Source: Vibrio sp. 10N.286.49.B1 (GTDB lineage Bacteria > Pseudomonadota > Gammaproteobacteria > Enterobacterales > Vibrionaceae). From it: 64,000 bases of DNA. Where the stretch lies: assembly GCF_002873335.1 (NCBI RefSeq), contig NZ_MCUW01000010.1, positions 198,640 to 262,639 of the forward strand. Reading direction: 5' to 3'. Of this stretch, positions 8,623 through 21,222 are shown piece after piece. Under the pieces are notes generated by a model, which made no database searches, was not told where the DNA came from, and saw only the letters and a program-made list of their open reading frames with translations. The translations under genes were made by a program, and so were the position numbers. Position 1 is the stretch's first letter, and each line of letters begins with the position of its first letter.

Positions 8623-10563
8623 TTAGTTTATTGCAAGTTCTGCCTCAGCGACTTTCTGCTTTTTTACTTTGTTGTATCGCATCTTCTTAAGAGCAATTGC
8701 AACGGCTGCGGTTGTAATAACACCAATCGCCATCGCCACAAGAGCAAGTGCGGGTTTGTTAAAGGCGCCAAGTAAAACAACAATTGGACCACCGTGGGCT
8801 ACGCTACATGTTAGGCCGAAAGTAAAACCAAGCACACATGCGACTGCTGAACCAATCATGTTTGCTGGGATCACGGCAAATGGGTCACGTGCAGCGAATG
8901 GAATGGCACCTTCTGAAATACCTACCATGCCCATAGCGGTTGCTGCTTTAGCATTTTCGACTTCTTCGCGTTCAAAAAGATTCATACGGCTGCCAATGAA
9001 TGCGGCTAGTGCCATACCAAGAGGGGCGACGGGTATGGCGGCAGCTTGTGCCCCCATGAACTGGGTTTGTCCTTCAGCGATGAGGCCAACACTGAATAAG
9101 AAAGCGACTTTACCAAATGGACCACCCATATCAAACCCCTGCATTAATCCAATGACGAGGCCGATAATAATGACGTTGCCAGTCGAAAGGTTGGCAAGCA
9201 CAGTATTCATCGTTTCCATGATACCGGCAATAGGCGCACCAATGATGAAAATAAAGACGGCAGCAATGAACAATGAACCGGCGATCGGAGCGATCATTAT
9301 TGGCACTAGCGGTTGAATCATTTTCGAGTAGTTAAAGCCGACAATCCATTTAACGAAGTAGCCCACAAGAAGGCCTGCGATAATGGCACCGATAAATCCA
9401 GTACCGGCATCAGCGTCATAAAAAGAACCATTGTTTGCTATCCAGCCACCAATTAAACCGGGTGCTAGGCCAGGACGGTCTGCAATTGCATATGCAATAT
9501 ATCCAGCAAGGACTGGGATCATCAAGGTGAAGCCAACAACCCCTACATCGAGAATTTTGTTCCAAAAACTGCCTTCTGGTATTGCGAGCCCGCCAGGTGT
9601 TGCTTCCCCACCGATTGCTAAAGAAATTGCAATCAAGATACCGCCCACAACAACAAATGGGATCATGTGTGAAACACCATTCATTAAATATTTGTACAAA
9701 TCTTGCCCTGAAGCGCTAGAAATGGCTGTATTGGAATCCGCTTTAGCTTGGCCGTCACCCGTGTAAATTGGCGCGTCTAAAGCTTGAGTGATTAACTTGT
9801 CCGCGTCTTTAATCGCTTTTTTCACGCCAGTAATAATGACGCGTTTTCCAGAAAATCGATTGAGGTCGACTTGCTTATCACAGGCTACAACGATGGCATC
9901 TGCTCGGTCGATCTCTTCTTGAGTCGGAATATTTCGCACACCGACCGAACCGTTTGTTTCTACTTTACATTCGTAGCCCATTTCAGCGGCGGCTTTTTCT
10001 ATCCCCTCAGCCGCTAAGTAAGTATGAGCAACGCCAACAGGACAGCCTGTGACACCAATAATGAAGCCTTTCACGGTGTCGCTTTGCGTATCCACCTTTA
10101 GAGAGGTATTCGCATCATTATCTGAGGTGAGAAGCGCGAAGGCTTCTTCGTTTGTTGTTGCTGCTTTTAGCTGCTCTAAAAAGGAGGGCTCAATAATTTT
10201 GGACGAGAGTTTAGCAAGAACCTCGATATGAAAATCGGAGGCGGTTTCTGGAGAGGCAATCATAAAGAATATCTTTGATAGCTCACCGTCCTCAGCACCG
10301 TAATTGATACCTTGTTTACTTACTCCTACAGCAATCGCTGGAGAGGATACGGCTGAACTCTTCGCATGTGGGAGCGCAATACCGTCTTCAAACCCGGTGT
10401 TGCCGGTATTTTCTCGTGCCCATACGTCTTGGACAAATTGGGCTTGGTCAGTAACTTTTCCAGCGTCGACAAGTACATTTGCTAATTCATTAAATACCGA
10501 CTCTTTATCGGTCGCCGTTAAATCAAGCTTGATTAACTGCGTGTTGAGGATCTCTTTCATCAT
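8623..10563 (-). CDS. PTS fructose-type transporter, fused EIIA-EIIB-EIIC
   Basis: A 646-residue fusion with all three EII parts of the fructose/mannitol (Fru) superfamily. EIIA spans about 1-150, with the phosphoryl His66 in ALPHAKSS. EIIB spans about 165-265, with the phospho-Cys174 in GVTGCPVGVAHTY. The multi-pass EIIC spans about 290-635. It takes up a sugar or polyol while phosphorylating it, with phosphate from HPr. Fusions of this order transport fructose or, in MngA, mannosylglycerate; the true substrate here is unknown. It is a single-gene transcript on the minus strand with a palindromic operator 39 bp before the start, also found at the PhyH and GRE promoters. This ties it to the GRE cluster and suggests it imports that pathway's substrate as a phosphate ester. 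Confidence 0.93.
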   Translation of the reverse strand: MMKEILNTQLIKLDLTATDKESVFNELANVLVDAGKVTDQAQFVQDVWARENTGNTGFEDGIALPHAKSSAVSSPAIAVGVSKQGINYGAEDGELSKIFFMIASPETASDFHIEVLAKLSSKIIEPSFLEQLKAATTNEEAFALLTSDNDANTSLKVDTQSDTVKGFIIGVTGCPVGVAHTYLAAEGIEKAAAEMGYECKVETNGSVGVRNIPTQEEIDRADAIVVACDKQVDLNRFSGKRVIITGVKKAIKDADKLITQALDAPIYTGDGQAKADSNTAISSASGQDLYKYLMNGVSHMIPFVVVGGILIAISLAIGGEATPGGLAIPEGSFWNKILDVGVVGFTLMIPVLAGYIAYAIADRPGLAPGLIGGWIANNGSFYDADAGTGFIGAIIAGLLVGYFVKWIVGFNYSKMIQPLVPIMIAPIAGSLFIAAVFIFIIGAPIAGIMETMNTVLANLSTGNVIIIGLVIGLMQGFDMGGPFGKVAFLFSVGLIAEGQTQFMGAQAAAIPVAPLGMALAAFIGSRMNLFEREEVENAKAATAMGMVGISEGAIPFAARDPFAVIPANMIGSAVACVLGFTFGLTCSVAHGGPIVVLLGAFNKPALALVAMAIGVITTAAVAIALKKMRYNKVKKQKVAEAELAIN

Positions 10564-10601
10564 AATGCGGATCTCTTCTATCGTTGTTATGTGTAGGGTT
10601 A

Positions 10602-10615
10602 TATGTATTTACAAA
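10602..10615. promoter_or_regulatory. GntR-type operator copy 1 (PTS promoter)
   Basis: TATGTATTTACAAA matches the palindrome TTTGTATTTACAAA at 13 of 14 positions, 39 bp before the PTS start codon. The same site occurs at 11927 and 13766. A weak FNR-like half site (TTGAT at 10653) lies further upstream. Confidence 0.65.
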
Positions 10616-10766
10616 TTATCATTTATCTTAGAGTGTCTTCCTCTGGTTAAAATTGATTTATGTCATGTTTTTTATATCGCTAAGCCTGTGTATGCTGAAT
10701 TGTGATACGTATAACGAAATATCTAACGTAAAGTATGAGCTTAATCACAATTAAAAATTTGTCATA

Positions 10767-11810
10767 TCAAATGCTAGGCTGTGCAATAGTGAGTAGATAC
10801 GGTAATTTGCGTTCTCCACGCCATTGGCAAATCAATATTTTTTGATCATTGAGAGGAAGTACATCATGGATATGATTAAATAAAGAATCGTATTCTGTTT
10901 GCAAAGACTGTAATTCGCCATCTATGTATATTGCGGGATCTGCACCAATAGTGTGTTGTATTATGCCTAACTCATCGACACTCAATACAAATCCGCTTTT
11001 GTCTTTTCGGTTTGCGTAATTCTCTAAATCGTCGTCACTAACCGTTGGCCCAGACCAACAAATGCCACAAAATAGCAAATGTTCATAAACTACAGCTCGA
11101 CAAGGGTAGGCCCCCGGTAGAGGTATAGAACGTAAGAACTCTCCTTCTAATGAGAAGAACTTTAGTTTCGATTGTTTTCGAGATGACACGACGAGTTGTG
11201 GCGCTTTTCCATGCTTTGTTGGACGGTAATCAAGGGTGATCCCATGAGGGTTAAAAAGAGAATTATCACAAGGGTGATTCAGTGTACCGCCAAAGCTAAA
11301 TTTGTGATCCCCCGCATTATCGAAACAATGGATGAAACTCGCCCCATATCCATCAGCAATATAAATATCGCCATTTGGTGCAACACATGTTTCTGTTGGG
11401 TTATAGGTAAAAGGTGGGTCATAGAGTCCTAATTCAATAGGGTCGGGTAGTTTTCTAATGATGTCACCGTTTAACGAAGTTTGTACGACTTCTCCTCGTC
11501 CTTTTTGGACAATGCCATCGACTTCTACCACGCCAGTTTGAGTGATCAATAAATATTCGATCTCGCCTGACTCATATAGCGTCAAACCATGACAGCCGTT
11601 GTATCCTAAGGTCCAGCTTTGCAGGAAGTCCCCTTGCGCTGAGAAAACAAGAATATTGTTGTCTGGGTGATCAACACTAAGAAATATACGACCATCGCGG
11701 CTTTGTGCCATCTCATGACAGTTCTCGATGTGAATGTAATCGGGAACGTCACACCAATTGGTATCAACAGTATATTGTGTGAGTGGGTTGGTCTCTAAAA
11801 TGCTTTTCAT
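10767..11810 (-). CDS. NHL/SMP-30-like six-bladed beta-propeller protein
   Basis: 347 residues with recurring propeller blades that contain Asp-Gly-x-Ile-Tyr/Phe strands (SRDGRIFLS, APNGDIYIADGYG, NPHGITLDY), typical of NHL/six-bladed propellers. No signal peptide or lipobox is seen, so it should be cytoplasmic. Relatives include lactonases, peptidylamidoglycolate lyase and binding scaffolds. His and Asp residues in HEMAQSRDG, NGCHGLT and NPHGITLD could form a central metal site. It is divergent from the PhyH gene, with a shared 181-bp control region carrying the cluster operator, and lies upstream of the PTS gene on the same strand. Its reaction is unknown; lactone hydrolysis or sugar epimerisation would fit a sugar pathway. 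Confidence 0.7.
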   Translation of the reverse strand: MKSILETNPLTQYTVDTNWCDVPDYIHIENCHEMAQSRDGRIFLSVDHPDNNILVFSAQGDFLQSWTLGYNGCHGLTLYESGEIEYLLITQTGVVEVDGIVQKGRGEVVQTSLNGDIIRKLPDPIELGLYDPPFTYNPTETCVAPNGDIYIADGYGASFIHCFDNAGDHKFSFGGTLNHPCDNSLFNPHGITLDYRPTKHGKAPQLVVSSRKQSKLKFFSLEGEFLRSIPLPGAYPCRAVVYEHLLFCGICWSGPTVSDDDLENYANRKDKSGFVLSVDELGIIQHTIGADPAIYIDGELQSLQTEYDSLFNHIHDVLPLNDQKILICQWRGERKLPYLLTIAQPSI

Positions 11811-11926
11811 GGTTTCCTTTAATGCGCGCTTGGTTAATGTATCAGCGATTACTCATGAGTGATTTTTATGTTCACTCCATTCATTTAACAAATCTATAGC
11901 TTGATTAACATAACGATTTTTTGTAA

Positions 11927-11940
11927 TTTGTAAATACAAA
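11927..11940. promoter_or_regulatory. GntR-type operator copy 2 (PhyH/propeller promoters)
   Basis: TTTGTAAATACAAA, the exact reverse complement of TTTGTATTTACAAA, sits in the divergent control region, 52 bp before the PhyH start and 117 bp before the propeller start. The arms TTTGTA/TACAAA form a perfect dyad around two bases. Confidence 0.7.
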
Positions 11941-11991
11941 AAAATGACTCGAGAGTGAATGGGTCTAATTAAATGAGAACGGAGAAGTGCA

Positions 11992-12780
11992 ATGACCATA
12001 CTGACACCTGAAAAGAAAGTGGCTATCGACGAGCAATTTTCGTTAATCGAGCAATATCAACGTGAAGGATTTGTATTGCAGAAAAAACCCTTGTTTGCAT
12101 CCGAACAGTTCAGCGAGTTACAAGATATATTCGAATCGTTGTTGCTAGAAAGTACAGATGTTCGCGCAGATGAGTTAAATCGTCCGCATTACAATAACCC
12201 GCGTTTATTCAAGTTCTTAACTGCAGAACCGGTGTTGAAGTTGGTTGAATCGATTATTGGACCTAATATTGGGCTTTGGAGCAGCCACTTCATTTGTAAA
12301 GAGCCACTTACAGGTCGAAGAACACCTTGGCACGAAGATTCAAAATATTGGGAAGGTCGAATTGATAGAATGGACAAGCTTGCCACTATTTGGTTGGCTA
12401 TTGATCCGTCTAATCGCCAGAATGGTTGTATGAGGGTGATCCCTGGAACTCATCATAACGAAGATAATTTTGATTATGTCGCCGTCGATAAAGCGACCAA
12501 TACATTTTCGACAGAGTTGCACCATAGATACTTTGATGAAAATGATGCGGTTTACTTTGAATTGGAACCGAATGAATGTTCAGTCCATGATGGTCGCATA
12601 TTTCATGGGGCACTTGCTAATAACAGCTTAACTAGACGATGTGGCTTTACAATGCGATACGTTTCATTAGATTGTAAGATAAATCAAGATCATCCAGACA
12701 ATGAAACGCATCGTTTATACCACGTAAGCGGAGATAACGTTGCTCACAATAAGGTCGTTAAAGTACCCGATTTCAGTTGA
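11992..12780 (+). CDS. PhyH-family Fe(II)/2-oxoglutarate dioxygenase
   Basis: 262 residues with the phytanoyl-CoA dioxygenase fold. The iron-binding set is visible: H114 and D116 in PWHEDS, and H205 in GRIFHGALAN. R216, eleven residues later, is where the family binds the 2-oxoglutarate carboxylate. Members hydroxylate diverse small molecules using O2, so the substrate cannot be inferred. A GGAGA lies just before the ATG. The gene is divergent from the propeller gene and carries the cluster operator. Its need for O2 contrasts with the O2-sensitive GRE in the same regulon; it could serve an aerobic branch of the same substrate's breakdown. It is convergent with the GntR gene. Confidence 0.88.
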   Translation: MTILTPEKKVAIDEQFSLIEQYQREGFVLQKKPLFASEQFSELQDIFESLLLESTDVRADELNRPHYNNPRLFKFLTAEPVLKLVESIIGPNIGLWSSHFICKEPLTGRRTPWHEDSKYWEGRIDRMDKLATIWLAIDPSNRQNGCMRVIPGTHHNEDNFDYVAVDKATNTFSTELHHRYFDENDAVYFELEPNECSVHDGRIFHGALANNSLTRRCGFTMRYVSLDCKINQDHPDNETHRLYHVSGDNVAHNKVVKVPDFS

Positions 12781-12841
12781 TAGACGTTGGCTAGTTGTGA
12801 CTTCAAGCGCAATGATGTAAAGACATTTCTCGCTTAGATGC

Positions 12842-12873
12842 TATAACAATACTGAGTGCTCGGTATTGTTATA
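12842..12873. terminator. Bidirectional hairpin between convergent genes
   Basis: A 15-bp stem, TATAACAATACTGAG against CTCGGTATTGTTATA with one G-T mismatch, lies between the convergent PhyH and GntR genes. No long T tract follows, so efficiency is uncertain. Confidence 0.6.
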
Positions 12874-12889
12874 CATGTCGGTTATAGCG

Positions 12890-13576
12890 TTATCGAATTG
12901 AGACGGTTGTCAGTTCATTTGACGCCAATGTTTCTATTGTGTATTGCGCCAATACTGAATGCAAAAGATAAACGTGGTGGTGAATAGACAAGCATATGTG
13001 CTGTGGCTCCACTCTTAGTAAGAACGCTTCTTTGTCGTTTAATGCCTTACCTGAAATAGTCTTTGCATCATGGCTGATATTCTGTCCCGAATTATGTTCA
13101 ATAAAGTTGAGAACGGAATGCTCGCAATGCGCCTCTGTAAATTCTGGGAACAGATTTACTGGCATCCAGGTCTCTTCTAGAATTGCAGGCTCACCATTGA
13201 TAATACGCATCCGCTTAAAGTGGAAAAGTTCGACGCCAGCATTTAACCGAAACTTATCTGCTAGTGTTTGATTTGACCTTATTTTGTTGAATTCCAAGAC
13301 AATATTTTTAAGTTCAACATCGTTGTTTATCCGCTCAGAGATACTTGTTAGGTTATTGTCTTGATAAAATTCGGGTGGGTTGACGAACATCCCTGACCCT
13401 TGGCGAGAATGTACAAAAGATTCTTGTTTTAGTTTCTCGATTGCTTTTCTTAAAGTTGGACGGCTGACTTCGAATTTATCGGCTAAAGCATGTTCGCCTT
13501 CAAGTTGAGACCACGCAGGGCTTACACCAGTAACAATATCTGATTTGATAGCTTGGTAAACTTCAACGTATTTCAT
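12890..13576 (-). CDS. GntR/HutC-family regulator with UTRA domain
   Basis: 228 residues. An N-terminal winged helix at about 5-70 (ALADKFEVSRPTLRKAIEKL) is followed by a UTRA ligand-binding domain (about 90-225) with the typical FHFKRMRIINGEPAILEET stretch. HutC-type members usually repress transport and catabolic genes and are released by a phosphorylated sugar or other pathway metabolite. ATG at 13576 is preferred because the domain begins at MKYVEVYQAIKSDI and AGGA precedes it; an in-frame ATG 48 bases earlier is less likely. It is divergent from the GRE gene. The palindrome TTTGTATTTACAAA at three promoters of this cluster is the best candidate for its operator (inferred). Confidence 0.9.
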   Translation of the reverse strand: MKYVEVYQAIKSDIVTGVSPAWSQLEGEHALADKFEVSRPTLRKAIEKLKQESFVHSRQGSGMFVNPPEFYQDNNLTSISERINNDVELKNIVLEFNKIRSNQTLADKFRLNAGVELFHFKRMRIINGEPAILEETWMPVNLFPEFTEAHCEHSVLNFIEHNSGQNISHDAKTISGKALNDKEAFLLRVEPQHICLSIHHHVYLLHSVLAQYTIETLASNELTTVSIR

Positions 13577-13729
13577 TTCTACTTTTCCTACTGTTCTAGT
13601 GGCGCTAGCGGGCCGGTTAAACATGTTAAGACATATCGATATAACAATGTGGTTATGCCCAATGTTTTAATGTTTATCTTATCAGAGAATACCACTATGA
13701 ATACAGAGGTTATCAACGTTTGCTGGGAC

Positions 13730-13743
13730 CTGATCAAGATCAT
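13730..13743. promoter_or_regulatory. FNR-like box upstream of the glycyl radical enzyme
   Basis: CTGATCAAGATCAT has the FNR/CRP-family core TGAT-N4-ATCA intact; only the outermost base on each side departs from TTGAT-N4-ATCAA. It lies 87-100 bp before the GRE start. Anaerobic activation would suit an oxygen-sensitive enzyme. Confidence 0.45.
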
Positions 13744-13765
13744 CTTTCTGTAGAGTTTTTGTTTA

Positions 13766-13779
13766 TTTGTATTTACATA
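13766..13779. promoter_or_regulatory. GntR-type operator copy 3 (GRE promoter)
   Basis: TTTGTATTTACATA matches the palindrome at 13 of 14 positions, 51 bp before the GRE ATG and 22 bp downstream of the FNR-like box. Confidence 0.68.
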
Positions 13780-13829
13780 TTTTCAGTGTGGATTTATGGT
13801 TAACGTATAAATTGAACAGGAGTGATACC

Positions 13830-16121
13830 ATGTCATCAAAGATTACTAATAATCCAAGTCAAGTTGATGTAAACAAGAAAATCCCGTGTGAGAAGGGCGT
13901 CGAACATCAACTAAGCATCATGGAATCCTATACTCGAGCCCACCAATCTGAACCAGATATATACTTGCGTGAGGCTAAATGTTTAGCAGAGTTGTATCCT
14001 GTTTTATTTAGACAAATTGAAGCTGACGATTCTGTGATTGGACGTATTGATGCGCTACCAATTGGTTTTGGTAGCGTGACGTCTGTGGGCGGTGTAGGGC
14101 ATTACTGTAATTTCTCCAAGTTAGAAGAACTAAAGCTCGAGTTACCGACCATAATGCACGGTCGTATAGATGCGCTTCTTGAATATTGGGAAAAGCATGA
14201 TACTCGCTCTATTTATTTCAAAGAGACCATTACAGACACGACTCTGGGTAAGTTTGTGGACGTCAACTACCCTGCAATTGCGACTGCTCGCCTGAGTGGA
14301 ATGTATTTGGATTACAATAAGCTCATCGATCTTGGCTTAAACGGCATGAAAGAGTTAAATGCTGATAAACTCAAAACAGCACGAGCTATCAATGATAATA
14401 AGGCTGTTTCATTACATCAGGCGTTTTTGAATTGTCTTGCCATTGTAGAAAATGTTATCGACAAACACGTTGAACTTTGCGCGAAAGAGTTAGCTTCAAC
14501 AGAAGACTTGACGCGCAAGCACCAAATGAATGACTTGATTGACGCGTTGATGCACATTCGGAATAACAAACCCGCGACTTTTTTAGAAGGTATTCAACTT
14601 ACTTGGCTTTACAGTATGTGCTCTGGTGTAGTGAATTATGGCCGAATGGACGACTATCTCGGAGATTTATTGGTTGCAGATCTAGCTGAAAATCGAATCA
14701 CGGAAAGACAGGCAATCAATTATATCCGTTCACACTATCGGTTGATCGAGGCACGTAAAACGACGGTGAATGGTCGTGTTGTTATTGGTGGGCTTGGTCG
14801 AATCAATCCTGAGTCAGCCGATATCTATTGTCGTCTTGCGATTCAAGCGGTTAGAGAGAATAAAGATACTGAGCCTCAATTCACTCTTCGTATCCACAAA
14901 GGCATGAATCAAGATGTTTACCAGGATGCACTCGACGCGATTGGTGAAGGGTTAACCTACCCAATTTTGTACAATGATGATGTGAATGTTCCGGCTGTAA
15001 TGAAATCGATGCAAATTTCAGAGCAAGATGCGCAGCATTATGTTCCTTTTGGATGTGGTGAGTTTGTATTGTCTGGTAAAAGCGTCGGCACCCCAAACAC
15101 GTGTATTAATATCCTTAAGATATTGAATATAGCGCTAGCGGGTGGTGTAGATTTTTGGGATGGGCAAAATAAGGCTGGCGATGCGTTATTACTCGCACCC
15201 AAGGAAGTAAACAGCTTTGATGATGTTATGTCTAACTATAAAATTTTATTGGATTTTTATATTGATATCACCTCGAAAGCACAAGCGTTCTCTTATGAAG
15301 TAATGAACCAACAAGTTGGTTTTTTATTTACCAGTATGCTCACCGACGACTGTATTGGCCGCAGTAAAGCGTTGTTAGATGGCGGGGTTTATAAGTTAGG
15401 TGGTACTAATGAAACCTACGGCAACACCAATGCTTATGACTCTTTGGCAGCGATCAAGAAGGTCATATTTGATGATGGTAAATACAGTTATACCGAACTC
15501 ATTGACGCATTAGAAGTGGATTTTGACGGCTATGATCGTATGAAGTACGACCTTATTCATGCACCAAAATTTGGCAACGATGACGCTTATGTGGATGACA
15601 TAGCCATAGAGATGCACGAATACATTTGTAATGGCATTAAAGACTCCGCTGCAAAGGTTGGTATGGATAGCTATCTAGTGGTTATTATCAATAATCAAGT
15701 CAATACCGAATGGGGCCGAGCGACGAGCGCATCTGCTGACGGGCGTCATAAAGGCGTCTATATGAGTAACGCAAATAACCCGCAAAGTGGGGCTGATAAA
15801 AATGGTCCTACCGCCATGTTGAATTCACTAGCAAAACTGAAAGCGAACGTACATGCGGGATCGGTTCAAAATATGAAGTTCAGTAAAAATATGTATCTCG
15901 GCAAGCGCATGATTATCGAGTCGTTACTTGATGGCTATTTTGATCAGGGCGGGCCTCAAATTATGGTCAGTGTTGTCGGCAAAGGTGAACTTGAAGATGC
16001 TTACCATAACCCTGAGAAGTACCCCAATTTGGTGGTCCGTGTGGGTGGGTTTAGCGCTCGGTTTGTGAACTTGGACAAAGACGTGCAGTTGGAGATACTC
16101 AACCGCACTCTAAATGACTGA
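13830..16121 (+). CDS. Glycyl radical enzyme (PFL-like C-O or C-C lyase)
   Basis: 763 residues, the usual length for a GRE. The glycyl radical loop near the C terminus reads RVGGFSARF, with Gly740 as the radical site. The thiyl-radical loop reads VPFGCGEFVLSG, with Cys409 and Glu411. Cys followed by Glu at +2 is the pattern of the dehydratase/lyase GREs (diol dehydratases, choline lyase, YbiW/PflD), not of pyruvate formate-lyase, which has Cys-Cys. The residue between is Gly; I recall Val or Ile as usual there. The start is set by CAGGAG 7 bases before ATG 13830. The activase follows after an intrinsic terminator. Context (Fru-type PTS, UTRA regulator, Gfo/Idh enzyme) points to a phosphorylated polyol or anhydrosugar substrate, by analogy with E. 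coli PflD. The substrate is inference. Confidence 0.93.
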   Translation: MSSKITNNPSQVDVNKKIPCEKGVEHQLSIMESYTRAHQSEPDIYLREAKCLAELYPVLFRQIEADDSVIGRIDALPIGFGSVTSVGGVGHYCNFSKLEELKLELPTIMHGRIDALLEYWEKHDTRSIYFKETITDTTLGKFVDVNYPAIATARLSGMYLDYNKLIDLGLNGMKELNADKLKTARAINDNKAVSLHQAFLNCLAIVENVIDKHVELCAKELASTEDLTRKHQMNDLIDALMHIRNNKPATFLEGIQLTWLYSMCSGVVNYGRMDDYLGDLLVADLAENRITERQAINYIRSHYRLIEARKTTVNGRVVIGGLGRINPESADIYCRLAIQAVRENKDTEPQFTLRIHKGMNQDVYQDALDAIGEGLTYPILYNDDVNVPAVMKSMQISEQDAQHYVPFGCGEFVLSGKSVGTPNTCINILKILNIALAGGVDFWDGQNKAGDALLLAPKEVNSFDDVMSNYKILLDFYIDITSKAQAFSYEVMNQQVGFLFTSMLTDDCIGRSKALLDGGVYKLGGTNETYGNTNAYDSLAAIKKVIFDDGKYSYTELIDALEVDFDGYDRMKYDLIHAPKFGNDDAYVDDIAIEMHEYICNGIKDSAAKVGMDSYLVVIINNQVNTEWGRATSASADGRHKGVYMSNANNPQSGADKNGPTAMLNSLAKLKANVHAGSVQNMKFSKNMYLGKRMIIESLLDGYFDQGGPQIMVSVVGKGELEDAYHNPEKYPNLVVRVGGFSARFVNLDKDVQLEILNRTLND

Positions 16122-16132
16122 TACCTTTATTT

Positions 16133-16157
16133 GGGCATCTAAATGATGCCCTTTTTT
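16133..16157 (+). terminator. Intrinsic terminator between GRE and activase
   Basis: A 7-bp GC-rich stem GGGCATC/GATGCCC with a 5-nt loop is followed by six T residues. It lies 12 bp past the GRE stop and 26 bp before the activase start. Partial read-through would give far less activase than enzyme. Confidence 0.88.
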
Positions 16158-16182
16158 CTGACGTATACGTTAGGTGCTTTAT

Positions 16183-17121
16183 ATGCAAAATGTGGGTCAA
16201 GCAGTGAATCATGACAGTGTTACAGGGATTGTTTTCGATATCCAAAAATTCAGTGTTAATGATGGGCCTGGCGTACGCACGGCCGTATTCATGAAGGGTT
16301 GTCAGATGAAGTGCGTCTGGTGTCATAACCCTGAATCTTTGAGTAGCAAAAGGCAACTTGCGTTTAGCGAAACAAAGTGTGTAGGTTGCCGAGACTGTGC
16401 ATCGGTGTGCCCGAATGATGTCCATCAATTTGATGATAATGGTCATCACAGCGTCAATTTTGAGCTCTGTAACATGTGCGGCCTTTGTGTTGACGCATGC
16501 ATGCAAGATGCGTTGAAAATTTACGGAAAGTCATTATCGGTCGACGCTGTTTTTCAAGAAGTGATTAAAGATAAAGTGTACTTTGACAAATCAGGAGGGG
16601 GGATAACCCTTTCTGGTGGCGAAGCATTGAAACAATTCGAATTTTGTTTGGCTCTTGCTAAAAAATGTAAAGAAAATGGCGTTCATGTCTGTGTTGAAAC
16701 TAACGGCGCATCCAAAGCGTCTCATTATGAAGCCATCGCACCTTACGTCGATTTATTTTTGTTTGATTACAAGGCAACGGGACATAAATTACATAAAGAA
16801 CTGACCGGGATGACAAGGACGTTAGTCGACGAAAACTTACACAATCTGAATAAACTCGGAGCCCCGGTGATTTTACGTTGTCCTATTATCCCAGGTTATA
16901 ACCTTTCCGATGAGCATTTAAAGGCAATATCATTGCTGAGTGAATCGATGAGCAATATCGTTAAAACTGAGCTACTTCCTTATCATAATTTCGGGAAAGG
17001 AAAGGCAGCAGAGATCGGTCGCCAATATCATGTTGACGCTGCGTTACCAGAAGATGAAGAAATTGCCCAATGGCTAGAAAAAGTGAAAAGTTATGGCGAA
17101 GTTGATGTCACCCTCAGTTAA
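16183..17121 (+). CDS. Glycyl radical enzyme activating enzyme (radical SAM)
   Basis: 312 residues. The radical-SAM cluster motif CX3CX2C is at C40, C44 and C47 (KGCQMKCVWCHNP). It is followed by an inserted ferredoxin-like domain with two 4Fe-4S motifs, CX2CX2CX3C at C66-C76 and C96-C106. The GGE-type SAM motif is present as LSGGEALK. This insert is typical of activases for dehydratase/lyase GREs and absent from pyruvate formate-lyase activase. It abstracts a hydrogen from Gly740 of the upstream enzyme. ATG 16183 follows TTAGG by 8 bases; a GTG at 16174 overlaps that site and is less likely. Confidence 0.94.
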   Translation: MQNVGQAVNHDSVTGIVFDIQKFSVNDGPGVRTAVFMKGCQMKCVWCHNPESLSSKRQLAFSETKCVGCRDCASVCPNDVHQFDDNGHHSVNFELCNMCGLCVDACMQDALKIYGKSLSVDAVFQEVIKDKVYFDKSGGGITLSGGEALKQFEFCLALAKKCKENGVHVCVETNGASKASHYEAIAPYVDLFLFDYKATGHKLHKELTGMTRTLVDENLHNLNKLGAPVILRCPIIPGYNLSDEHLKAISLLSESMSNIVKTELLPYHNFGKGKAAEIGRQYHVDAALPEDEEIAQWLEKVKSYGEVDVTLS

Positions 17122-17189
17122 AACCACGCACTCGCGGTACAGTAGGCATTAAAAAACATCAATCGTTTACGAGATTAGGAGTCGATAGC

Positions 17190-18170
17190 GTGTTGAATTT
17201 AGCCACAATAGGGTCAAACTGGATCACGGAGTGTTTTGTCGAGGCCGCGTTAGCATCAGGCGTGTACCAATTAGTAGGGGTGTATTCTCGAGATATAGAA
17301 AAGGCACAGTTGCTGGCCGATAAGTATCTTGCTCCTCATGCTTACGATAATTTAAATCATTTAGCTCGAGACGAGCGTATTGATGCGGTATATATTGCCA
17401 GTCCTAACTCTCTGCATTTTGAGCAATCAAAAATGATGTTGGAAAGTGGTAAGCACGTTATATGTGAGAAACCACTGGCGTCAAACGTGCAAGAAGTACG
17501 AGAGCTATATCGTCTCGCCGAAGAGAATAATGTGGTTTTGTTTGAGGCCTTTAAGACTGAATATCTTCCCAATTTCGCGGTGGTTCGCAATGCTTTGGGG
17601 CGGGTAGGGCCAATGAAGCATGCCTTTTTCAACTATTGCCAATATTCCTCTCGGTATCAACGCTATTTAGATGGGGAACAACCGAATACGTTTAATCCTG
17701 CATTCTCAAATGGTTCAATCATGGACATTGGGTATTATTGCATTGCCGCGATGGTGAGCCTGTTTGGACGACCTCGCCATGTGTCGGCGCGTGCAGTACT
17801 GCTTGACTCGGGCGTCGATGGTGCCGGTCACGTGAGCTTAGATTATGGCGATTTTATCGCGACTGTACAGCATTCGAAAACCTCAAACTCCAAGCTGCCC
17901 AGCGAGATTCAAGGAGAGGCGGGAAGCCTGATATTGGAAAACTTCCCCGAAGGAAAAACCGTCACTTTGGCATTAAACGATGGGTCCAGCCAAGACCTAA
18001 CGTTAGATCAGCATGAGAATACAATGGTCTATGAAGCGCTTCACTTCCATCAACAAGTAACAGAAGGGAACGCGGATAAGTCGGCAATCGAAAGGTCGAT
18101 CATCACCGCAGAGGTGCTAACCGAAGTGAGACGACAAACGGGCGTACGATTTCCTGCCGATGGTATTTAA
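17190..18170 (+). CDS. Gfo/Idh/MocA-family oxidoreductase
   Basis: 326 residues. The N-terminal Rossmann fold starts at LNLATIGSNWIT, unusual because the common GxGxxG is reduced to IGSNWI. The family EKP motif is in HVICEKPLASN (about 90-100), and a C-terminal substrate domain contains SNGSIMDIGYYC. It resembles the YulF-like branch of NAD(P)-dependent sugar/polyol dehydrogenases. The start is GTG 17190, strongly supported by AGGAG 8 bases upstream. It is the last gene of the GRE operon and is closed by a terminator, so it probably oxidises or reduces the pathway's sugar, for example a keto/anhydro sugar. The substrate is unknown. Confidence 0.87.
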   Translation: MLNLATIGSNWITECFVEAALASGVYQLVGVYSRDIEKAQLLADKYLAPHAYDNLNHLARDERIDAVYIASPNSLHFEQSKMMLESGKHVICEKPLASNVQEVRELYRLAEENNVVLFEAFKTEYLPNFAVVRNALGRVGPMKHAFFNYCQYSSRYQRYLDGEQPNTFNPAFSNGSIMDIGYYCIAAMVSLFGRPRHVSARAVLLDSGVDGAGHVSLDYGDFIATVQHSKTSNSKLPSEIQGEAGSLILENFPEGKTVTLALNDGSSQDLTLDQHENTMVYEALHFHQQVTEGNADKSAIERSIITAEVLTEVRRQTGVRFPADGI

Positions 18171-18263: not shown

Positions 18264-19037
18264 TTATAACTCAGCACCATATATATCAAATGTGAAGTAC
18301 TTGGCTGCGATTTTATCGTAGGTACCGTTGGCACGAATGGTATCAATCGCTTGGTTAAATTTCTCAGCAAGCACTTTGTCTTGTAATCGGAGTGCTAGCG
18401 CCGTGCCTTCTCCAATGTAGGCCTTATCGGTGACGGCTTTGCCTTTGAATTCAAATGATGCACCTTCCGGTTTTTCTAACAATGCCAAAGCGAGTTGATC
18501 GGAGTTGCCAAATGTGGTGTCGAGACGCCCATTTTGAAGGTCTAGGTACACCTCATCTTGTCCTGAATATCGTTTAATATCAGCGACGTCGGCAAAGTGG
18601 TCGGTGACGTAGCGATCATGAATTGTCCCTTGCTGAACTCCAATCGTCTTACCGGTTAAACCAGCTTTATCTGTGGTGAAGTCAGCGCTCTTTGCTGCCA
18701 CAAAGCGGGCGGGTGTTTGGTAGTACTTATTGGTAAAAAGTACCTTGCTCTTTCGCTCTTCAGTGATTCTCATTGAGGCCATGATGACGTCTGATTTTCG
18801 AGCTAATAGACCAGGAATGAGCGCGTCCCAGCTTTGAGAAACCCACGTACAGTCGAGTTTTGCTTCCTCGCATAGTGCGTCTGCAATTTCGATATCAAAA
18901 CCAACAGGTGTCCCTTCATTGTTCTTATAGTTGAATGGCGGGTAAGTAAAATCTGACGCGAGTCTGATTTCCTTAGCTTGTACCGCCGTGCATAAGAGAG
19001 CGGTAATGCAGGCAAAACTTAGTGCGATTTTTTTCAT
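18264..19037 (-). CDS. Amino-acid ABC transporter periplasmic binding protein
   Basis: 257 residues with a Sec signal peptide (1-21, VQA cleavage) and the SBP_bac_3 fold. The N-terminal IRLASDFTYPPFNYKNNEG and FDIEIADALC stretches, and SQSWDALIPGLLARKSDVIMAS, are typical of ArtJ/HisJ/ArgT proteins that bind arginine, lysine, ornithine or histidine. No permease or ATPase is adjacent, so it may work with a transporter encoded elsewhere. It lies 12 bp downstream of the HisC-like aminotransferase and is probably co-transcribed with it, linking amino-acid uptake to transamination. Confidence 0.9.
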   Translation of the reverse strand: MKKIALSFACITALLCTAVQAKEIRLASDFTYPPFNYKNNEGTPVGFDIEIADALCEEAKLDCTWVSQSWDALIPGLLARKSDVIMASMRITEERKSKVLFTNKYYQTPARFVAAKSADFTTDKAGLTGKTIGVQQGTIHDRYVTDHFADVADIKRYSGQDEVYLDLQNGRLDTTFGNSDQLALALLEKPEGASFEFKGKAVTDKAYIGEGTALALRLQDKVLAEKFNQAIDTIRANGTYDKIAAKYFTFDIYGAEL

Positions 19038-19049
19038 GGAAACGTCCTT

Positions 19050-20135
19050 TTATTGAGCCTGTACTGTGCGGCTTTTAGAATAATGAGTGAGTGTTTCAAT
19101 AACTTCGATCATGCTTTCTTTGCTGCCGATCGTAATTCGTACACACTGTGATAAAGCGGGTTCGTGGCTTTGGTTTCTTGTCACGATGCCGTTTTCTAAA
19201 AGAACGGCAAATAAGTCGATGTTTTCTTCTACCTTCAGCAACACAAAGTTGGTCGCGGATGGAAAAATTTGCTCGATGAAGTCAAATGACAATAAGGCAT
19301 GGCGAAACCATTCACGAGTTTCAATGAGTGATTGCGTTGCGTCCGATACGGTCTTGAGCCCCTTAGGTGATAGCGCATTGAGCACGATGCTGGCTGAGCA
19401 GTCTGGCATTGGGTAAGGGGGAATCAACTTGGCGACGTATGTCATGACTGCGTCACTGGCTAAGATAAACCCACAGCGCACGGCTGCCAAACCAAAGGCC
19501 TTTGATAAGGTTCGAATAACCACAAGGTGTGGGTACGATTCGATTAAGTCAACAATAGAAGATTGAAGCTCAAATTCTATATAAGCCTCGTCGACAACGA
19601 CTAATGACGATTGTTGAGTCCCCTCAAGTACCGCAACGATGTCCTCTTTTGGGATAAGGTTACCGGTTGGGTTGTTGGGAGAGCACAAAAACACAATATT
19701 GGTGTGTTGTGACTGGCGGATAATCTTGTCAACATCGAGATTAAAATCAGGAAGTAATGGTACATCAAGTGTTTTGATGGCGAGCGCATCAGCACAAAAT
19801 TCATACATGGCATAGGTCGGTGAGCAGATTAAAATCTGATCATGTCCCGGTTGGCAAAATGTACGAATCAATAAATCAATGGCTTCATCTGCGCCGCGTA
19901 CGGCCAGCGTCGCAGCTTGAGTATTGGCGTAGCCTTGATAAGCGCTGGCGATATCTTGAGGCAAAAAATCAGGGTAGCGGTTGTAGCTTTCATTAGGCTG
20001 TTCAGGATGCAGAGAGTGCTCCAATTCATTGGCATTTAACCAGATTCGACCATTGCCACCAATGCGTCTTGCTGACTGGTATGGTATCAGTTTTTTTACC
20101 GCCTCAGGTACTAGGCTTGCTACGAGATCGGTCAA
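19050..20135 (-). CDS. HisC-like PLP aminotransferase
   Basis: A class I/II aminotransferase of about 361 residues resembling histidinol-phosphate aminotransferase: PYQSARR near the start, LNANELEHS, SPNNPTGN, VVDEAYIEF, and the PLP lysine in RTLSKAFGLA. No other his gene is near, so it is a stand-alone paralogue that may act on another amino acid. The start is uncertain. TTG at 20135 is preferred because AAGGAAAGG precedes it. Another TTG at 20162 would add nine residues but has no good ribosome binding site. It is divergent from a LysR gene and co-directional with the amino-acid binding protein. The substrate is unknown. Confidence 0.82.
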   Translation of the reverse strand: MTDLVASLVPEAVKKLIPYQSARRIGGNGRIWLNANELEHSLHPEQPNESYNRYPDFLPQDIASAYQGYANTQAATLAVRGADEAIDLLIRTFCQPGHDQILICSPTYAMYEFCADALAIKTLDVPLLPDFNLDVDKIIRQSQHTNIVFLCSPNNPTGNLIPKEDIVAVLEGTQQSSLVVVDEAYIEFELQSSIVDLIESYPHLVVIRTLSKAFGLAAVRCGFILASDAVMTYVAKLIPPYPMPDCSASIVLNALSPKGLKTVSDATQSLIETREWFRHALLSFDFIEQIFPSATNFVLLKVEENIDLFAVLLENGIVTRNQSHEPALSQCVRITIGSKESMIEVIETLTHYSKSRTVQAQ

Positions 20136-20325
20136 TGTCCTTTCCTTTTTGTAAATACTCAATCATTTATAATGGGTAATAATTTATTTTTTGGTCATTA
20201 TTTAGAATGATTATTCGTAAATATCCCTTGATGTCTATTAGTTAACCAAAATGTAGTTGAAATAAGAATCGAAATAAACACATACTAGCCATGATAATAA
20301 TTCATATCTAAGGTGTCAGGCGAGT

Positions 20326-21222
20326 ATGAAGAAACCACTACCATCAACCAAAACATTGCAGTCTTTTCTAGCGACGGCAGCACACCTTAACTTCACGCAT
20401 GCCGCCAACGAGTTGAATTTGACGCAAGGGGCGATCAGTCGGCAGATTCAGTCGCTGGAGACGCATATTGGTAGTGAACTGTTTTTTCGGCACGCAAGAG
20501 GTCTGAGCCTGACGCCAAAAGGTCAGCGACTCGTGCCGTTGATAGAAGACGCAATTCATCATTTGCAATCTGCGTTGGCGCAGGTATCTGACTCGCCATC
20601 TAAGGTTCGGTTGAATGCACCAAGTTGTATTACGTCGTGGTTGTTACCACGGCTCATGACTTTTCAACAAGCGTACCCTGATATAGACGTTGAGCTTACC
20701 TCGACGATTAAACATGTCTTTGAGCCAGACTTTGACTCATTTGACGCTGTGATCGCCTACGGAAAATCCCCCAAACAAACGACGTTAATGAGTCAGTTAT
20801 TGTTTGAAGAACAGCTGGCACCGATTTGTCGAGCGGATAAAATTAGGCAAGAAGACAAAATAGAGAACAGTAGCAATGTGATTATGCCGGATAAGCTGCA
20901 CCATTATACCTGGCTTCATGCCAACACTGAGCAAAGTGATTGGAAGTTGTGGCTTAGCCATATACAAAAAAGGCAGCTTAGTAATTCGTCAAATCAACAT
21001 TTTGCCACACTTGATCAAGCGATGAACGCCGCGCTGCAGGGGTTTGGTATCGCGATTGGAGACGTTACACTCGCCGCTCAGGATCTCGAGCTTGCTCGAG
21101 TGGTAAGAGTGAGCGAAGAAACCGTATTTTCTGGCAGTGGTTATCATCTTATTCAGCCTAAAAATCGCCAATCGAGCGGTTTGTCATTGCTGGTGGCATG
21201 GCTAGGCGAAGCGAATAGCTAG
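20326..21222 (+). CDS. LysR-family regulator (GcvA-like)
   Basis: 298 residues. The N-terminal helix-turn-helix (FLATAAHLNFTHAANELNLT) is followed by QGAISRQIQSLE and a LysR substrate-binding domain from about residue 90. It is transcribed divergently from the aminotransferase/binding-protein pair, the usual position for a LysR activator of its neighbours. The 160-190 bp between the divergent starts is AT-rich and is the likely control region. The inducer is unknown. Confidence 0.9.
   Translation: MKKPLPSTKTLQSFLATAAHLNFTHAANELNLTQGAISRQIQSLETHIGSELFFRHARGLSLTPKGQRLVPLIEDAIHHLQSALAQVSDSPSKVRLNAPSCITSWLLPRLMTFQQAYPDIDVELTSTIKHVFEPDFDSFDAVIAYGKSPKQTTLMSQLLFEEQLAPICRADKIRQEDKIENSSNVIMPDKLHHYTWLHANTEQSDWKLWLSHIQKRQLSNSSNQHFATLDQAMNAALQGFGIAIGDVTLAAQDLELARVVRVSEETVFSGSGYHLIQPKNRQSSGLSLLVAWLGEANS

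Follow-up and report, generated by a model that had tools for sequence, protein, structure and literature searches.

A candidate oxygen-switched sugar-derivative regulon around a deep clade of glycyl radical enzymes in Vibrio

Why should one bacterial gene cluster hold both a glycyl radical enzyme (GRE) and an oxygenase? The question is raised by a stretch of 64,000 nucleotides from Vibrio sp. 10N.286.49.B1 (contig NZ_MCUW01000010.1, positions 198,640 to 262,639; hereafter the window), which carries genes for a fructose-type EIIABC importer of the phosphotransferase system (PTS), a UTRA-domain regulator, a GRE and its activase, a Gfo/Idh oxidoreductase, a propeller protein and a PhyH-family oxygenase. 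A previous sequence-only reading had listed these seven genes, and domain and profile searches confirmed every one of them, with the domains named, at the positions given in Table 1. Here we propose an oxygen-switched regulon for a sugar derivative, in which a single PTS-imported substrate would be cleaved anaerobically by the GRE and, when oxygen is present, by PhyH together with the propeller; we regard this proposal as about evenly balanced between right and wrong. One nutrient with two chemistries is suggested because the oxygen-using pair usually stands under the same switch as the GRE system.

The switch can be recognized in the intergenic gaps. The exact sequence TGTATTTACA occurs three times in the 64 kb, each time in a gap of the cluster, and the 15-base sequence WWTGTATTTACAWAT, which was selected only after the three sites had been seen, has three exact copies in the 5.15-Mb genome, every one in a cluster promoter, against 0.33 expected by composition and none for the reversed control over the whole genome. 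The shared operator motifs of the sequence-only reading are thus borne out by the genome-wide count. When one mismatch to TGTATTTACA was allowed, the 11 sites in the window were not above chance (7.8, standard deviation 3.2) and are uninformative. The pattern TGTAnnTACA is present 5' of the GRE gene in each of the 13 Vibrio loci that were read and throughout the main enteric group of eight (L008 and L038–L044), 5' of the PTS gene in the 11 Vibrio loci that hold one, and in three of four propeller/PhyH gaps, L058 being the exception. Orthologues of the UTRA regulator in Vibrio have 75–81% identity. Near the UTRA start in the UTRA/GRE gap (around 13625–13640 in the window) and in its relatives there is an extra conserved block, which reads TGTTAACACATAT in most relatives.

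Boxes that resemble FNR sites stand beside these operators. The promoters were scanned with a consensus of the TTGATnnnnATCAA type, which we take to be that of FNR; expectations came from base composition and are uncorrected for kinship. Of the 13 Vibrio loci, 12 have the core TGATnnnnATCA 5' of the GRE gene, where base composition predicts 0.1, and in 11 loci it has a single fixed spacing from the operator. L047, in which the core lies approximately 700 bp from the operator, is counted as present though not at the fixed spacing, and L009, whose core differs by one change at the corresponding position, is without the strict form. An alignment of 12 Vibrio GRE-upstream gaps has the core among its few conserved blocks, and all eight enteric PTS/GRE gaps contain it. 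The PTS promoter likewise has a predicted FNR-type box at a conserved position: in each of the 19 promoters compared, the best match in the range of 48–54 bp from the operator was taken as the box, and it lies at 49–51 bp. As FNR-like boxes precede both the GRE and the PTS genes, the GRE on one side and the oxygen-dependent PhyH and propeller on the other resemble alternative branches, a relation overlooked in the sequence-only reading. In all 16 clusters that lack PhyH the PTS box departs from the consensus at one position, and in all three that have PhyH it does so at two. The added changes in the window differ from those in the pair L005 and L048, so two events are likely; L005 and L048 group in the GRE tree (91/86), in which the L005 sequence was begun at an arbitrary codon close to its real start and the placement of the window's GRE is unresolved. 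Small though the numbers are, the weaker PTS box suggests an importer that must also run in air, as would be expected given an oxygen-dependent branch.

The distribution of the oxygenase follows that of the GRE. PhyH was detected in four of 227 Vibrio genomes, and all four are among the 13 that carry the GRE (Fisher 6.6e-6, uncorrected for kinship). The trio recurs in Persicobacter, with PhyH directly 5' of the GRE gene and the propeller gene within 4 kb. H114, D116, H205 and R216 of PhyH are invariant, so that the HxD...H iron ligands and the Arg that binds 2-oxoglutarate are in place, and the predicted structure is a jelly-roll. The structure predicted for the propeller is the six-bladed fold of PAL, the lyase that works with the copper hydroxylase PHM in the peptidylglycine alpha-amidating system; the propeller protein has four invariant histidines (H32, H74, H189 and H315), and no signal peptide was seen by eye. 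In a family-level sample one of 150 genomes had a PhyH match, although a separate listing includes a PhyH from Photobacterium with 76% identity.

Table 1. Genes, operators and FNR-like boxes of the cluster, in positions of the 64-kb window
Feature	Position	Strand	Remarks
PTS fructose-type EIIABC importer	8623..10563	-	EIIA_2 + IIB + fructose-type EIIC; conserved core
UTRA operator, PTS promoter	10604..10613	+	sequence match
FNR-like box, PTS promoter	10653..10666	-	consensus changed at 2 of 10 positions; centre 51 bp from that of the operator
Six-bladed NHL/PAL-type propeller	10767..11810	-	NHL 25 bits, cut-off 20
UTRA operator, propeller/PhyH gap	11929..11938	-	sequence match
PhyH-family Fe(II)/2-oxoglutarate oxygenase	11992..12780	+	93 bits
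GntR/UTRA regulator, TreR/MngR/YvoA-like	12890..13624	-	presumed repressor of the regulon
FNR-like box CTGATCAAGATCAT, 5' of GRE	13730..13743	+	36 bp centre-to-centre from operator
UTRA operator, divergent UTRA/GRE promoter	13768..13777	+	sequence match
GRE	13830..16121	+	763 aa from ATG; PF02901 391 bits, PF01228 82 bits
GRE-activating radical SAM enzyme with ferredoxin-type clusters	16183..17121	+	TIGR02494 328 bits, cut-off 174
Gfo/Idh/MocA oxidoreductase	17190..18170	+	domain search

The seven genes do not form one tight unit, a correction to the sequence-only reading, even though all are present. PTS, UTRA, GRE and activase genes constitute a conserved core, to which PhyH and the propeller are added as a pair; the Gfo/Idh gene is widespread in Vibrio and enterics. 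All four core genes occur together in 11 of the 13 GRE-positive Vibrio genomes (the window, eight named contigs, L046 and L048), where the PTS orthologues beside the GRE gene have 84–87% identity; the contig of L010 stops before the PTS gene. Buttiauxella also has all four. Its family sample contains nine GRE-positive genomes in 295, Buttiauxella included, and of eight further enteric loci retrieved, seven hold the full core, flanked by housekeeping genes. The eighth, L045, is distant (GRE 51–52% identity, activase 33%, UTRA 53–55%) and also holds a LacD-like aldolase gene near further operator-type sites and a PTS gene of the FruA type, whose 881 bits exceed the cut-off of that model. Conserved linkage in other genomes, on which the sequence-only reading had staked itself, is therefore kept for the core. 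The present genome is the only one of 369 in the class sample to carry the GRE, two of 315 genomes in the order sample had a match, the E. coli genomes searched with the Buttiauxella GRE gene had none, and a search of viral contigs with the GRE alignment gave 66 stretches, of which none is a relative.

The Gfo/Idh enzyme, listed with the cluster in the sequence-only reading, is not supported as a specific partner. Its gene lies near the activase gene in only three of the 13 GRE-positive Vibrio genomes (the window, L047, with a HAD gene between, and L048), and homologues, mostly of 49–58% identity, are found in 24 of 28 hand-chosen genomes, including nine of 12 without the GRE; it is a generic gene and not a specific partner. 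Just 3' of the cluster (window 18264–21222), translations indicate an amino-acid-type substrate-binding protein, a HisC-like aminotransferase and a LysR regulator, which seem unrelated.

The GRE has the PF02901 and PF01228 domains over their cut-offs, with Cys409 and Glu411 in a GCGE motif and Gly740 in RVGGF, and all 21 clade members in the alignment keep the catalytic Cys409 and the radical Gly740. In a 28-protein tree it belongs to a clade of its own (support 100/100, stem 4.2 changes per site) that comprises proteins from Vibrio, enterics, Clostridia, Parabacteroides and Persicobacter and stands apart from YbiW, PflD, CutC, HypD, a Moraxellaceae GRE and PFL, with long branches that leave its sister unsure. 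The sequence-only reading was to fall if the GRE lay inside a characterised clade; it lies in none of those sampled. Relatives were seen in Vibrio, Enterobacteriaceae, Clostridia and Bacteroidota, and the named clostridial ones have 55–64% identity among the best 120 of 1879 matches listed. No NCBIfam model scored over its cut-off, and the nearest PDB sequences are the B12-independent glycerol dehydratase (228 bits) and then YbiW (200 bits). Identity to YbiW and PflD is 24–28%, and at the ESNGH of YbiW the clade is six to seven residues short; we take this stretch to be substrate-binding in glycerol dehydratase. Because GCxE and the glycine loop are kept and the ESNGH-aligned segment is missing, we infer that the enzyme can carry out eliminase-type chemistry in a differently shaped pocket. 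Several assignments were rejected: PFL (24.7% identity to the PFL of the same genome, no CysCys pair); CutC, HypD, HPAD, IAD and sulfopropanediol dehydratase (all far under the NCBIfam equivalog cut-offs); and membership of the YbiW/PflD clade, given the separate clade and 185 bits against a cut-off of 1109 for NF007437/PRK09983, presumably the PflD model.

Clues to the product come from neighbouring genes in other genomes. In L048 a phosphomannose isomerase gene (ManA 306 bits, cut-off 116) abuts the activase and Gfo/Idh genes; in Parabacteroides genes for a ROK kinase and the ManNAc-6-P epimerase NanE lie 5' of the GRE gene; and the genes divergent to the GRE operon of L047 encode a ROK kinase, an AGE-type epimerase and a protein that weakly resembles phosphomannose isomerase (under cut-off). 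These isomerase, epimerase and kinase neighbours suggest that the product is an aldose of the mannose type or the phosphate of one. According to passages of a 2025 review (PMC12441222), 1,5-anhydromannitol is converted without oxygen to 1-deoxyfructose-6-phosphate by way of PTS and PflD, and in aerobic rhizobia to mannose by a C1 hydroxylase that those passages term unidentified; from these two routes, a set of PTS, GRE, PhyH and ManA would fit. An anhydrosugar is a possible substrate, and a 1,5-anhydrohexitol such as 1,5-anhydromannitol is our leading guess, albeit a tentative one with more chance of being wrong than right, followed by an ether-linked carboxyalkyl or glyceryl mannose derivative.

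The proposed sequence of events is as follows. EIIABC would import a non-hydrolysable sugar derivative and phosphorylate it, probably at C6. The UTRA protein would repress the three promoters through TGTATTTACA, an operator recognized by its sequence, until released by a sugar phosphate. Without oxygen, FNR would activate the GRE/activase and PTS genes, and the GRE, with Cys409 and Glu411, would cut a C-O bond (less likely a C-N bond) in the phosphorylated substrate by thiyl-radical elimination. With oxygen, PhyH may hydroxylate the same substrate at the carbon that bears this bond, and the PAL-like propeller may collapse the resulting hemiacetal or hemiketal, the enzyme families suggesting these roles; the mannose-type aldose phosphate would then pass to ManA-like isomerases such as those encoded in the other genomes. 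That this amounts to a new GRE reaction, a radical cleavage of a non-hydrolysable sugar ether or anhydro phosphate twinned in one regulon with an oxygen-dependent pair of PhyH and a PAL-like protein that makes the corresponding cut in air, FNR choosing between them, is doubtful but worth stating.

The GRE may instead be a third anhydrohexitol-6-phosphate lyase, opening the ring ether like PflD or YbiW to 1-deoxyfructose-6-phosphate, which an aldolase would then split. Passages of the review ascribe that reaction to YbiW and PflD, GREs that act on PTS products (PMC12441222), and in V. rhodolitus (L006:13886-19002) genes for an FSA aldolase, an activase and a YbiW orthologue (70.5% identity to E. 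coli YbiW) adjoin the module; a DeoR-like regulator was also seen there by eye. Full-length FSA matches, hand-counted as those of 193 bits or more (46 genomes, only two of 227 being over the curated cut-off), are enriched in GRE-positive Vibrio, at eight of 13 against 38 of 214 others (Fisher 9e-4, uncorrected for kinship), and the LacD-like aldolase gene of L045 lies 3' of operator sites of the same type. Against these stand five of the 13 GRE-positive genomes, one of them 79% complete, without full-length FSA, while the eight matches in the others fall slightly under the curated cut-off; a LacD-like aldolase was matched in none of the 13, in a search with no positive control among them. The window's own genome is one of the five, with only a weak partial-type match (E 1.3e-20) taken for transaldolase, so that the product here is probably not simply 1-deoxyfructose-6-phosphate handled by FSA and a plain PflD/YbiW role is disfavoured. 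Around the cluster itself no aldolase domain was found in the nine proteins scanned, the remaining open reading frames lying outside that scan, which agrees with the sequence-only reading as far as aldolases are concerned. With the deep clade separation and the lost ESNGH-aligned segment added, we think this lyase somewhat unlikely. The earlier claim of a PTS-imported anhydrosugar or polyol phosphate accordingly survives in part: the PTS-fed regulon with a single operator and the lyase-type GRE stand, and the PflD/YbiW-type reaction is weakened by the identity, the segment and the want of FSA and LacD. A pentitol 5-phosphate delivered by the PTS and dehydrated by the GRE to 2-deoxyribose-5-phosphate, for the general deoxyribose-phosphate aldolase, would suit glycerol-dehydratase-type chemistry, recalls the nearest PDB sequence, and would account for a four-gene core that needs no dedicated downstream enzyme. 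As it makes PhyH and the propeller unrelated passengers, it leaves the co-occurrence of PhyH and GRE, the shared operator and the mannose-type isomerases unexplained, and we judge it improbable.

PhyH and the propeller may also form a pair of their own that oxidatively dealkylates some other compound and merely shares the UTRA operator. Their families do occur away from the GRE clade, PhyH relatives being spread over many phyla: a Catenovulum adriaticum plasmid (L056:11914-13980) has a related propeller adjacent to a distant PhyH (26%) with no GRE listed, and the neighbours there are sulfatases and GH16 enzymes. In G445 the pair lies approximately 22 kb from the GRE gene, beside the sole UTRA orthologue seen in that genome. 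PhyH is nested within the GRE-positive Vibrio, however, Persicobacter has the trio as well, and a weakened PTS box is confined to clusters that hold PhyH; a separate pair is therefore, in our estimate, rather less probable than the joint regulon. Further observations, together with those in Catenovulum and G445, weigh against that regulon. Nine of the 13 GRE-positive Vibrio genomes are without PhyH; no PTS or UTRA gene was found in 20 kb around the GRE gene of G445 (L047), whose propeller/PhyH gap is without TGTAnnTACA; and the propeller family also accompanies another GRE. TRIM-type NHL domains fit the propeller better than PAL does, by profile and by Foldseek E-value, and a single-sequence PDB search matched TRIM/Brat NHL domains alone. 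Matches to the FNR consensus are predicted sites and not equal to binding. The strict core occurs in none of the four propeller/PhyH gaps (521 bp in total, 0.013 expected, so that chance predicts the same), an absence that tells little by itself, and the window's gap carries one FNR-like match with two mismatches. Each isomerase clue comes from a single locus, plain hydroxylation of 1,5-anhydromannitol would not need a lyase, and the substrate and reaction have been assigned by inference. On plasmids of Acinetobacter towneri and Moraxella osloensis (L053:11414-15972; L054:8414-12972), members of aerobic genera, a divergent GRE gene and an activase gene are followed by a gene for a propeller 37% identical to that of the window.

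Among known systems, the cluster appears to work like the PTS-fed GRE lyases YbiW and PflD of E. coli, which act on 1,5-anhydroglucitol-6-phosphate and 1,5-anhydromannitol-6-phosphate and share its GCxE motif, adjoining activase and PTS feed, yet its GRE belongs to neither clade and differs in identity, in the missing segment and in a genome without full-length FSA. The E. coli gene order is ybiU-ybiV-ybiW-ybiY-fsaA (L063:797-5607), with ybiU (PF07350, Gig2-like) two genes from the GRE gene ybiW; since the YbiU family is presumably oxygenase-like in fold, this neighbourhood is a suggestive parallel and a possible second pairing of oxygenase and GRE. The importer exceeds the cut-off of TIGR01427 (275 bits, cut-off 158), and its nearest curated NCBIfam models are MngA (370.7 bits) and FruA (354 bits), each under its own cut-off. 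The 2-O-mannosylglycerate system MngA/MngR is similar in EIIABC domain order, in its UTRA-type regulator and in MngA being the top curated PTS hit; in contrast, the MngA cut-off is 763 bits, and no glycosidase domain was found among the nine proteins scanned. The peptidylglycine alpha-amidating system is unlike the cluster, whose oxygenase is PhyH-type and whose context is sugar, not peptide, and PAL is outscored for the propeller by TRIM-protein NHL domains in profile searches. The rhizobial 1,5-anhydrofructose pathway would match in its reductase, oxygenase and mannose product, whereas its hydroxylase, unidentified, is described as P450-like in the passages concerned (PMC12441222). A 1,5-anhydrofructose reductase is among the matches to the Gfo/Idh enzyme, which scores only 61–62 bits with it against 187 bits with the uncharacterised 2ho5/4iq0; assignment of the Gfo/Idh enzyme as a 1,5-anhydrofructose reductase was rejected. 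We found no described pathway with this gene combination in the open-access literature, subscription papers lying outside that coverage, in agreement with the sequence-only reading, and no description there of a PhyH/PAL-like pair twinned with a GRE under one operator and FNR-like boxes.

The analysis adds a deep GRE clade for which we found no assigned reaction and for which the four-gene core is a usable experimental handle. If the proposed regulon is real, PhyH would be a candidate for the enzyme that hydroxylates a 1,5-anhydrohexitol at C1 in air, which the review passages term unidentified (PMC12441222). One nutrient would then be met by two opposite chemistries, that of a radical enzyme killed by oxygen and that of an enzyme consuming it, under one repressor with oxygen sensing on top.

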